Below, in pieces: positions 58,687-62,161 of a stretch of DNA of 64,000 nucleotides. The notes below the pieces were generated by a model that was not told the DNA's origin, ran no database searches, and worked only from the letters and a program-made list of their open reading frames with translations. The stretch covers positions 124,001 through 188,000 of the forward strand of contig CANLXA010000003.1 in the NCBI GenBank assembly GCA_947494975.1. The letters are read 5' to 3'. Position numbers and translations under genes: made by a program. The first letter of the stretch is position 1. Each line of letters starts with the position of its first letter. This stretch comes from an uncultured Roseicyclus sp. (lineage in GTDB: Bacteria > Pseudomonadota > Alphaproteobacteria > Rhodobacterales > Rhodobacteraceae).

Positions 58687-58884
58687 TTAGTAGTCTCCGT
58701 TGCCACCCGATACAGCCAGCGCGACAAGTATCAACGCAAAGAGCGGCACGATGATACCACCGGAACTGTCCGCGCTGTCCTGCGTAATCATCGTGACATC
58801 CATATGTGGAACGGCGGTGTCTTCGGCCGCCAAAGGTGTCGCCGACAGCACGACGGCCATCACAATCGTACAAAGACGTTTCAC
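58687..58884 (-). CDS. Small secreted or membrane protein (paralogue 1)
   Basis: 65 residues. A signal sequence (about 1-20, ATPLAAE) is followed by a short polar stretch and a hydrophobic C-terminal segment GIIVPLFALILVALAVSG. GTG start, with GGGGGGA upstream. It shares the G-I-x-VP-x-FAL pattern with the next small gene. Similar short proteins occur in many Rhodobacterales genomes, as far as I know of undefined function and sometimes mislabelled. Likely a tiny inner-membrane or envelope protein. Confidence 0.7.
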   Translation of the reverse strand: MKRLCTIVMAVVLSATPLAAEDTAVPHMDVTMITQDSADSSGGIIVPLFALILVALAVSGGNGDY

Positions 58885-59046: not shown

Positions 59047-59232
59047 TCAGCCGTGATGCAGCATGATCAGCAGCAGCAGCGCAAAGATCGGGACGAAAAT
59101 GCCCTGGTTCGACGCGGCGGTGTCCTCGACAACGACAACCTCGGGTACGTGCGGCTGGACGTAGCCCGATGCGTTTGCGGCGGGTGCCGCAACGGCGAGG
59201 CTCAGCGCGGCGGCGCAAGCAAGTTTCTTCAT
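59047..59232 (-). CDS. Small secreted or membrane protein (paralogue 2)
   Basis: 61 residues. A signal peptide (about 1-21, AVAAPAANAS) precedes a Val/Glu-rich linker (PEVVVVEDTAASNQ) and a C-terminal hydrophobic segment GIFVPIFALLLLIMLHHG. The ATG at 59232 follows GGGGAACCCC-type sequence; an ATG 30 bp upstream is less likely. It is a diverged tandem copy of the neighbour at 58687. A terminator lies just downstream. Confidence 0.7.
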   Translation of the reverse strand: MKKLACAAALSLAVAAPAANASGYVQPHVPEVVVVEDTAASNQGIFVPIFALLLLIMLHHG

Positions 59233-59568
59233 GGGGTTCCCCTTCAATGGCATTACAGACATGTCAGCGCGATCAGGCAGCGACCCGCTTCACCCTCTAG
59301 ATCACACCACGGGGCCGGTTCGATCAACGCAGTATCACCGTTTTTCGGCCCCAGATGGTCCGCGGACGGCCGTTTCGTGTCCGCGATGCCACGGTTTTGC
59401 GCATCGGAAACGGCCCCAAACCCCCGCGATGGCCCCGAAAGCGTGGCCCATGGGGCACGATGGCGAACCGATTCGAGCCGTTTTGCAGGTGATTCGTTGC
59501 CACGTTCCCGCCGCGCATCCCATGGTTGAGCCCGACGATTTCTTTGTGCTCACGACAGGTTACGCGAG
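59233..59568. other. Divergent intergenic region
   Basis: 336 bp between the small secreted-protein gene and the polysaccharide deacetylase gene. No coding frame, palindrome or tRNA was found. It must contain the two divergent promoters; I see no clear -35/-10 pair. Confidence 0.5.
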
Positions 59569-60957: not shown

Positions 60958-61032
60958 GGGTGATTAGCTCAGTGGTAGAGCGCTTCGTTCACATCGAAGA
61001 TGTCGGGAGTTCAAATCTCTCATCACCCACCA
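60958..61032 (+). tRNA. tRNA-Val (anticodon CAC)
   Basis: Acceptor GGGTGAT pairs with ATCACCC. The D arm is TAGCTCAGTGGTAGAGCG. The anticodon stem is CTTCG/CGAAG with loop TTCACAT, so anticodon CAC. The T arm contains GTTCAAATC. The 3' end is encoded as A then CCA. Confidence 0.97.
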
Positions 61033-61207
61033 AGCCTCCCCACCCCGCCTCGTTTCTTCGTCTGGGCATGCCGTTGGCCCGACCGACGCGGCCCGCTGTG
61101 GCGGGACCTCTGGGTCGGGAGTTCAAATCTCTCATCACCCACCAAGTCTCCCCACCTCGCCTTGCTTCTTCGTCTGAGCATGCCGTTGGCCCGACCGACG
61201 CGGCCCG
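61002..61207 (+). repeat. Tandem duplication of the tRNA-Val 3' half and flank
   Basis: Copy 1 (61002-61095) begins inside tRNA-Val and copy 2 (61114-61207) repeats it 112 bp later with about five differences in 94 bp, all transitions. Copy 2 holds an orphan tRNA 3' half at 61114-61144 (variable-loop end to CCA) without acceptor 5' or anticodon parts. An 18-bp spacer (61096-61113) separates the copies. Confidence 0.9.
61114..61144 (+). pseudogene. Orphan tRNA-Val 3' half
   Basis: Identical in sequence to the T arm, 3' acceptor strand and CCA of the intact tRNA-Val, but no 5' half is present. It cannot fold into a tRNA. It is a remnant of a second gene copy or a duplication product. Confidence 0.8.
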
Positions 61208-61227: not shown

Positions 61228-61386
61228 TCACGGGTCCTCTTCTGCCAATTGCGCCAAATCGGCGGCGCGGGACAGGCTGGCGAGTTCCTCGCGGAGCGAT
61301 GCGTCCATGCATTTAACGCAGAGAGGCCCCACCGGCGTCGGGCCGTAGCGGGTCAGGGCGAGCAGGCGGATCAGGATATCGGACAT
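61228..61386 (-). CDS. 52-aa CVKC small protein, second gene of the SoxR-controlled pair
   Basis: Below the usual size cut-off. It encodes MSDILIRLLALTRYGPTPVG, then a CVKC motif (PLCVKCMDAS), then a helical Glu/Ala-rich end. The ATG lies 4 nt after the stop of the DUF1127-like gene, with GACGAG between, so translation is probably coupled. The two closely spaced cysteines could bind a metal or act in redox. No known family is recognised. The open frame, the coupling and the SoxR-box promoter upstream support it. Confidence 0.6.
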   Translation of the reverse strand: MSDILIRLLALTRYGPTPVGPLCVKCMDASLREELASLSRAADLAQLAEEDP

Positions 61387-61390
61387 CTCG

Positions 61391-61594
61391 TCACCACAGC
61401 TCTGTGCGCAGGGGCGTGCGCTCGATTGCAGGCAGCCCCAAGTCGCGAGCCAGGTGCGGGTCGTGCAAGACCCGGTCCAAGTGCTGCATTTGCCGCGCCT
61501 TGGCAGCGCGCAGCCACCAGCGGCGCCACAGCCGCGACGCGCCTAGGGGGCGGGGTTGGGGTGTGGGGTGGGTCATCAAGAATTGGATCGACAT
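61391..61594 (-). CDS. DUF1127-like small basic protein under a SoxR-type promoter
   Basis: 67 residues. The C-terminal two thirds, with RRWWLRAAKARQMQHLDRVL and HDPHLARDLGLPAIE, have the DUF1127 pattern (aromatic/Arg helix, then L.D..L.DLGL). AGAGG lies 8 nt before the ATG. DUF1127 proteins in Rhodobacter have been reported as small RNA-binding factors tied to oxidative stress, a link I recall but cannot check here. It begins about 29 nt after the predicted start of a SoxR-box promoter (61630-61660) and is co-transcribed with the 52-aa gene. Confidence 0.72.
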   Translation of the reverse strand: MSIQFLMTHPTPQPRPLGASRLWRRWWLRAAKARQMQHLDRVLHDPHLARDLGLPAIERTPLRTELW

Positions 61595-61629
61595 GGGAAT
61601 ACCTCTTGGCGAATCATTGCGATTACAGG

Positions 61630-61660
61630 ACGCTACGACCTCAAGTTCACTTGAGGTAAA
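61630..61660 (-). promoter_or_regulatory. SoxR-dependent promoter and SoxR operator
   Basis: The minus strand reads TTTACC (61660-61655), then a 19-bp spacer, then TAGCGT (61635-61630). The spacer and -35 end contain the near-perfect palindrome CCTCAAGTTCACTTGAGG (61639-61656), which differs from the canonical soxS operator of E. coli by one central base. The long 19-bp spacer is the known hallmark of MerR-type promoters. It faces the DUF1127-like gene, and soxR itself starts 11 bp away on the other strand. Confidence 0.88.
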
Positions 61661-61666
61661 GGCCTA

Positions 61667-62161
61667 ATGTCATCCAAGGTTGCAAAAGATCTGAGTGTCG
61701 GAGAGATGGCCGCCCGCGCTGGTGTGCCGGTATCGACCCTGCATTATTACGAGGCGGAGGGGCTGATCCGGTCGTGGCGGAACAGCGCAAACCACCGCCG
61801 TTACGACCGGCGCGAATTGCGGCGGGTCGCGATCATCCGCACGGCGCAGGCCGTGGGCGTCCCGCTGAGCGAGATCAAGGCGCTGTTCGACGGTTTGCCG
61901 GGCGGTCGGATCAAGGCCGAGGATTGGGCCAGAGCCGCGACGCTTTGGGCCGACCGGCTGGACGATCAGATCGAAACGCTTCTGCGGTTGCGTGATCAGA
62001 TGAGCGCCTGCATCGGCTGTGGTTGCCTGTCGATGGATCATTGCCCGCTCTACAACCCCGACGACCGGATGGGCGCGCATGGCGCGGGGCCGCGGCGCTG
62101 GGTGGGCGACGCGGCGGAAGTGGCGGAGATGGATGCCAGCGGGGCGGCCGCGGATGTTTGA
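61667..62161 (+). CDS. soxR: Redox-sensing MerR-family regulator SoxR
   Basis: 164 residues. A MerR helix-turn-helix (about 8-45; VGEMAARAGVPVSTLHYYEAEGLI) is followed by a dimerisation helix and the [2Fe-2S] cluster motif C115-I-G-C118-G-C120-L-S-M-D-H-C126, with spacing identical to E. coli SoxR. Redox-cycling agents oxidise the cluster and turn the target promoter on. No soxS is present; the obvious target is the divergent small-gene pair. Its 3' end overlaps the phosphatase gene by 8 bp. Confidence 0.96.
   Translation: MSSKVAKDLSVGEMAARAGVPVSTLHYYEAEGLIRSWRNSANHRRYDRRELRRVAIIRTAQAVGVPLSEIKALFDGLPGGRIKAEDWARAATLWADRLDDQIETLLRLRDQMSACIGCGCLSMDHCPLYNPDDRMGAHGAGPRRWVGDAAEVAEMDASGAAADV

Follow-up and report, generated by a model that had tools for sequence, protein, structure and literature searches.

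Background

In Escherichia coli, the soxS promoter carries its SoxR operator within a 19-bp spacer. Outside the enteric bacteria SoxR is viewed as switching pumps and enzymes directly. The DUF1127 proteins are widespread, and in the passages available from PMC12501420 it is treated as an open question whether they act on RNA or on protein, with both modes being discussed.

We report on a soxR locus in a stretch of 64,000 nucleotides from an uncultured Roseicyclus sp. (contig CANLXA010000003.1, positions 124,001 to 188,000), hereafter referred to as the window. A first-pass annotation had placed a SoxR box ahead of a two-gene operon for small proteins, and the operator and the two open reading frames, ORF A and ORF B, are indeed seen in the sequence (Table 1). 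Comparison with related genomes provides some insight into how soxR, A and B belong together, and we lean, if not strongly, towards the explanation that they constitute a cassette in which SoxR switches A and B, which would serve as a redox-stress adaptor. Specifically, in one Rhodobacteraceae lineage small DUF1127-like proteins are predicted to be the main or only output of SoxR. The association across many genera, the A-B fusions and the absence of a VOC gene (see below) go beyond what the window sequence alone showed. Among the matches listed in the DUF1127 and SoxR literature, mostly titles and abstract openings, there was no description of a soxR-A-B operon. The Ruegeria "soxR/soxS" genes (PMC9769926, seen in passages) were set aside as evidence, as these names may mean sulphur-oxidation genes, and the passages available from an oxidative-stress proteome of Dinoroseobacter (PMC8007024) hold no SoxR target information.

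Methods

Relatives of A were sought by scanning genome_contigs (84,980 species) for the motif DPH[LM]A[RK]D[LI]G, which gave 35 stretches. For the held-out test, 1602 ORFs from 84 SoxR loci outside the training set were searched with an A HMM (18 rows) and a B HMM (10 rows); the ORFs were taken from the 800 bp downstream of the best box, and L190, which has the same sequence as L149, was left out. The SoxR tree was computed from 103 rows, with the duplicates L138-L141 and L146 removed beforehand and with L149 and the identical L190 both included.

Results

The SoxR operator and the A-B promoter

The window soxR is genuine: its product scores 183.1 bits against TIGR01950, where the cut-off is 116.9. 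Divergent from it, the operator lies inside the 19-bp spacer of a minus-strand promoter (TTTACC-19-TAGCGT), just as the first-pass annotation had described; the operator is exact and both hexamers are present, the -10 being weak with 3/6 identity to TATAAT. The promoter scan could not report this promoter because it was restricted to spacers of 16-18 bp.

Table 1. Coordinates of the features of the soxR-A-B locus (window positions)
Feature	Position	Strand	Basis
ORF B, 52 aa, cysteines C23 and C26	61228-61386	minus	4 nt downstream of the A stop; profile relatives
ORF A, 67 aa, Arg-rich, DUF1127-like, DPHLARDLGLP core	61391-61594	minus	conservation beside soxR
Shine-Dalgarno AAGAGG of ORF A	61602-61607	minus	sequence; CAAGAGG kept in 9 congeners
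-10 hexamer TAGCGT, 19 bp from the -35	61630-61635	minus	sequence and congeners; weak consensus match
SoxR operator CCTCAAG-TTCA-CTTGAGG (CCTCAAGTTCACTTGAGG)	61639-61656		exact match; sole exact 20-mer palindrome genome-wide
-35 hexamer TTTACC of the A-B promoter	61655-61660	minus	sequence and congener alignment
soxR, 164 aa	61667-62161	plus	divergent; 10 bp between ATG and operator; cluster motif CIGCGCLSMDHC; TIGR01950

Allowing up to three mismatches, the 18-mer is expected 2.49 times by chance in the window and was found once, that occurrence being exact, and the exact 20-mer palindrome occurs once in the 4.55-Mb genome; a chance operator was dismissed on these grounds. With up to three mismatches the 20-mer has 10 places in the 4.55 Mb compared with 8 for a reversed-pattern control, and the pattern scan found no further convincing SoxR site in the window genome. 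Just one further 18-mer in this genome (G000) has one mismatch (C4:368536); it lies within a dehydrogenase-like reading frame and was rejected as a second site.

The same promoter elements are kept among the nine A-positive congeners. The box is exact in eight of them and has one mismatch in G007; the -35 is TTTACC in 9/9 (and TTGACC in the further genomes G084, G065 and G079), the -10 reads TAGCGT, TATCGT, TAGCCT or TAGGGT, and the A start codon is 60-63 nt from the box.

ORF A resembles DUF1127 proteins

All 18 A proteins examined are rich in arginine (12-23%) and basic (pI 10.6-12.0). None reaches the gathering cut-off of DUF1127 (PF06568), one of the ten members scanned matches at all (E 5.2), and A is not among the eight PF06568 matches (E ≤ 10) in the window genome. 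An hhalign comparison of the A profile with DUF1127 is weak (P 0.0037, probability 9%), and so is the signal from an HMM of 13 canonical DUF1127 sequences, whose top 30 comprise 15 A proteins, 8 shuffles and 7 other ORFs. When six bridging sequences, all selected with the A profile and five of them Pfam-confirmed, were added to this HMM, its top 30 of 1674 sequences took in 27 of the 28 A proteins; the remaining three places went to one shuffle, one other ORF and the A-like ORF found in L216, and the window's own A gave E 0.18. This result is supportive and nothing further, because it was the A profile that supplied the bridges. In the other direction, five of the seven non-SoxR matches of the A profile that were scanned are Pfam DUF1127 proteins, most of them with LDPHLLRDIGL-like cores. 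On these comparisons we call A DUF1127-like and not a DUF1127 member. The likeness proposed in the first-pass annotation holds for composition, charge and the related core, but all A proteins stay below the Pfam cut-off. Sequence searches of Pfam, NCBIfam and PDB with A and B gave nothing usable; neither has an AraC match in Pfam or NCBIfam, in agreement with the earlier suggestion that the target is something other than soxS.

The Arg-rich, basic and DUF1127-like character of A would also suit an RNA-binding riboregulator like CcaF1, the idea put forward in the first-pass annotation, by which SoxR would head a post-transcriptional redox regulon. Passages of PMC12501420 cite CcaF1 of Rhodobacter sphaeroides as binding RNA, but according to the same passages protein binding was shown for other DUF1127 proteins. 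We consider this special case of the adaptor explanation possible, if on the doubtful side.

ORF B and its cysteines

By single-sequence search B was found in 4/147 genomes, all in the window genus, and it is recognisable in four of the nine A-positive congeners. Exact CVKC was seen in no genome beyond the window species and the relative nearest to it; G003 has CIKC and G007 CTTC. In the 10-row B alignment C23 is kept in nine rows, and five of the six rows outside the Roseicyclus/HKCCE4037 group have CG[PS][LV]C, the CVKC of the window being local. C-x3-C is present in 5 of the 12 held-out B matches, and the G176 fusion and some others are without the pair; the cysteines are consequently no constant of the B family. 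On these alignments B is a new and patchy family, often with a cysteine pair. As to the first-pass description of B as a protein with a CVKC motif, the frame is real and abuts or overlaps A, but CVKC is not a conserved feature. Two domain matches, B to an Rhp7 zinc finger (E 0.09) and G084 B to CATRA-C (E 0.0072), were below the cut-off and in one sequence each, and were judged to be chance.

Between G000 and G010, dN/dS is about 0.26 for A, about 0.19-0.21 for B (11 substitutions over the full length) and 0.05 for soxR; by these values, which for A and B rest on few substitutions, both ORFs are under purifying selection. If A and B were chance ORFs beside a conserved autoregulatory operator of soxR, with no gene product that matters, their small size and a B frame that is not recognisable in five of the nine A-positive congeners would be accounted for. 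The synonymous bias, the fixed distance between box and start, the conserved Shine-Dalgarno and the coupling of the two frames would not, nor would the held-out HMM matches, the fusions and the boxes that precede A-B without soxR (below), and we regard chance ORFs as exceedingly improbable. The comparative evidence speaks against them strongly for A and less so for B.

A-B and soxR in the genus

A SoxR match is present in 9 of the 13 genus genomes, and A is present in the same nine and in none of the four without soxR (Fisher 0.0014, ignoring relatedness). In the search with A, 16/147 genomes match at E ≤ 0.01 and the nine congeners do so at E < 1e-11. The soxR-less congeners (G004, G009, G011 and G012) have an HU-like gene, tRNA-Val(CAC) and a mutase-like gene in order, without A-B and soxR, where "HU-like" and "mutase-like" are names read from translations and not database results; in G012 the empty site holds another ORF of about 100 aa. 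Since the empty sites keep the same neighbours without A-B and soxR, these genes look to be present or absent as one cassette.

Close to the locus, at 61002-61207, the window has a pair of direct repeats of 94 nt, 95% identical and with starts 112 nt apart, that contain the tRNA-Val(CAC) 3' end; by eye, the empty sites of L275 and L279 hold partial copies of the tRNA 3' end that resemble these repeats. Adjacent small ORFs at 58687-58884 and 59047-59262 (minus strand) have a signal-peptide-like start, an acidic middle and a hydrophobic C-terminus; similar peptides were seen by eye near the SoxR loci L089, L196 and L199, and these ORFs are possibly a small membrane peptide family.

Spread beyond the genus

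Relatives of A are encoded by 13 of the 35 motif stretches, and all 13 are divergent from soxR behind a box that has at most one mismatch. Five (L138-L141 and L146) are genomes of the query alignment (G010, G007, G005, G003 and G084), which leaves eight new relatives, three in Boseongicola, three in Silicimonas, one in Rhodophyticola and one in a second Pseudaestuariivita; of the 13, L142 and L145 are near-copies. Conservation beside soxR in relatives is thus seen for the A frame at every one of these loci, but for B the expectation held in part, as a B frame follows A in 9/13. At the six loci of this kind outside the Roseicyclus/HKCCE4037 group, B overlaps the A stop in all cases (TAATG, ATGA or longer).

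The SoxR tree falls into two groups on either side of a branch 1.06 changes per column long (support 100/100). In one of these sister clades the neighbour of soxR is a VOC/glyoxalase-like gene: its 51 rows are 50 labelled VOC and L216, where an A-like ORF, identified by eye, comes before VOC. The other group has 52 rows, 39 of them labelled A-B, where the A-B labels of the tree are partly by eye and those of L198, L209 and L216 have no HMM support. Within it a 41-row subclade (support 92/66) contains 37 A-B rows, three with no target seen and one with DUF4386. Other targets on the A-B side are MFS, RND, EamA, YCII, DoxX and a monooxygenase-like gene (by eye).

At many SoxR loci of the VOC clade the operator differs from that of the window, and this suggests a changed SoxR-operator specificity. 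Exact CCTAAAGTTAGGTTTAGA was observed at nine loci (L092, L095, L098, L100, L101, L225, L232, L235 and L242) in a search from L091 on.

In the held-out test the best matches were 13 for A and 12 for B (E ≤ 0.014), all on the operon strand and within about 270 nt of the box. The loci with an A and/or B match number 18 and all belong to the same side of the SoxR tree, with 0/51 loci of the VOC clade having one; the cut of E 0.014 was set after the scores had been seen, and at E 0.01 the number is 16 loci. For 18/33 versus 0/51 held-out loci the Fisher value is 1e-9, which ignores relatedness and uses this post hoc cut. The next A match (E 0.016) is a distal ORF in the VOC locus L094.

In a few genomes A and B are fused as one protein. 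B-A fusions are present in G176 (A 0.0042, B 5e-5) and G215 (A 2.3e-4, B 0.0012), and G338 has a fusion of the B-A type with a B match and an A core identified by eye. In G286 a B match (7.7e-4) is accompanied by an A core DVGL and then CGC, while G065 has A and then B by order, with only B significant (0.0075). Because of the fusions, A and B probably act together. By eye, we also noted the motif D[IV]G[LI][DE]CGC or DCGC, resembling a metal or cluster site, in fused or single mini-proteins at L258, L189, L198, L186 and L236.

Boxes away from soxR, and counts in the family

In three genomes a box precedes A and/or B with no soxR adjacent. In G167 (84% complete), A and B follow an exact box and no soxR was found beside them; in G338 an exact box precedes the fusion about 100 kb from the genome's own soxR; and in G313, with the same tRNA-Val neighbour, A and B are behind a box with three mismatches. 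These cases suggest that the box belongs to A-B and not just to soxR. The SoxR of G338 (L246) is in the VOC clade and its A-B is away from soxR, so A-B would not be tied to one SoxR type; the SoxR proteins of G167 and G313 (40 and 42% identity) are both outside the tree sample.

With the A profile, 27 of 394 family genomes match at E ≤ 0.001. Thirteen of these matches adjoin a SoxR match, G167 has the exact box, G313 the box with three mismatches, and 12 are without such a link, including five Pfam DUF1127 proteins and the A-like protein of G327. In 11 of the 13 best A-profile genomes the match adjoins SoxR, G167 and G327 being the exceptions. The B profile matches in 25/394 family genomes at E ≤ 0.01, with 12 behind a box, G313, and 12 others with E of at least 9e-4; the match in G290 (L261) was rejected as it lies within a large unrelated frame. 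SoxR itself is present in 172/394 family genomes, and most SoxR genomes of the family are therefore without A.

The A-like protein of G327 (L168; 55 aa, SDPHMRRDIGLPN) has no SoxR match in the genome and no box nearby, and by eye lies upstream of a homocysteine-methyltransferase-type-like frame.

VOC genes and the predicted SoxR regulon

VOC genes are present in 9 of the 16 A-B or congener genomes searched, and in all nine the best box, with 0-2 mismatches, lies 68-72 nt upstream of the conserved LEH codons. A single VOC query at E ≤ 1e-5 gave no match in G000 and G010 (both at least 99% complete), G008 (83% complete) and the four SoxR-less congeners. Since VOC was not found in the window genome by this query, A-B is the whole predicted SoxR regulon there.

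Four loci of the VOC clade (L216, L236, L241 and L249) have longer gaps between box and VOC. The gap ORFs of L216 and L236 look like A or B by eye and are not significant (E 2 and 1.7), the L241 gap is an N-terminal extension of VOC, and the L249 gap is unrelated. L216 (G158), on the VOC-clade side of the tree, has a box, a 67-aa A-like ORF ending SEHMRRDIGLSR and then VOC; this ORF gives E 2 with the A model and E 0.012-0.029 with DUF1127 models, and the arrangement is a possible ancestral order. L236 has, by eye, a 59-aa ORF with DCGC between box and VOC.

The close tie to soxR could also mean that A and B are modulators of SoxR, that is, a feedback pair that binds SoxR or reduces or repairs its [2Fe-2S] cluster and thereby ends the response. 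This would be in keeping with the linkage in 13/13 named loci and the absence of these genes as a unit, with the lack of another target in G000 and G010 (for G010, by VOC search and 1-mismatch pattern), with the cysteine pair in many B proteins, and with DUF1127 proteins being able to bind the regulator PhoR, as given in passages of PMC12501420. It fits less well with A-B standing apart from any adjacent soxR in G167, G313 and G338, with the VOC-clade SoxR of G338, by which A-B would not be bound to one SoxR type, and with no significant A or B at the SoxR loci of the VOC clade. We consider it unlikely.

Discussion

In the explanation that we prefer, the SoxR-switched adaptor, oxidised SoxR would bind the operator, remodel the over-long (19 bp) divergent promoter and activate a short transcript encoding two small proteins. 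Once translated, A would be a basic, Arg-rich and diverged binding protein of the DUF1127 type and B a small protein, often with a cysteine pair. The two would act jointly and, as they are sometimes one polypeptide, probably as one complex, a redox-stress adaptor that would bind a cellular target, either RNA or a regulator protein, and retune it. In the window genome A-B would be the sole predicted target of SoxR. The sequences themselves display the operator, the promoter geometry, the conservation and joint inheritance of the genes, the coupling and the fusions, while binding and activation by SoxR, translation, the complex and the way in which A binds are inferred.

A more specific version, which we find rather doubtful, has A-B as a new SoxR output in the form of a micro-complex, where the cysteine pair of B or a DIGLxCGC-like tail would be a thiol or metal site tuning the binding of A, and where the window species would run its whole redox-cycling response via A-B with no SoxR-controlled enzyme. 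More generally, these data hint that oxidative stress may here be met by small binding proteins in place of enzymes. Having a probable inducer, a partner that is often present and congeners that naturally either carry or lack it, the A subfamily makes the question of RNA versus protein action of DUF1127 proteins directly testable. Moreover, the A and B genes are small enough for annotation to miss.

Comparison with known systems

The locus shares with soxR-soxS of E. coli the divergent genes, the one operator in a promoter with a 19-bp spacer and the one main target, but this target is two small proteins without a recognised DNA-binding domain and not an activator of the AraC family. As in SoxR regulons outside the enterics, SoxR would act directly on few genes; whereas the usual targets there are enzymes and pumps, here the target would be a micro-operon. 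In A-B genomes the VOC/glyoxalase-like gene that neighbours other SoxR loci either has a different location, with a box of its own, or was not found. Finally, A has in common with DUF1127 proteins such as YjiS, CcaF1 and the Agrobacterium SDPs that it is small and Arg-rich with a core of the D..L..D[IL]G[LI] type, and differs from these in being below the Pfam cut-off, in its DPHLARDIGL-type core, in its link to SoxR and in having B next to it or fused.
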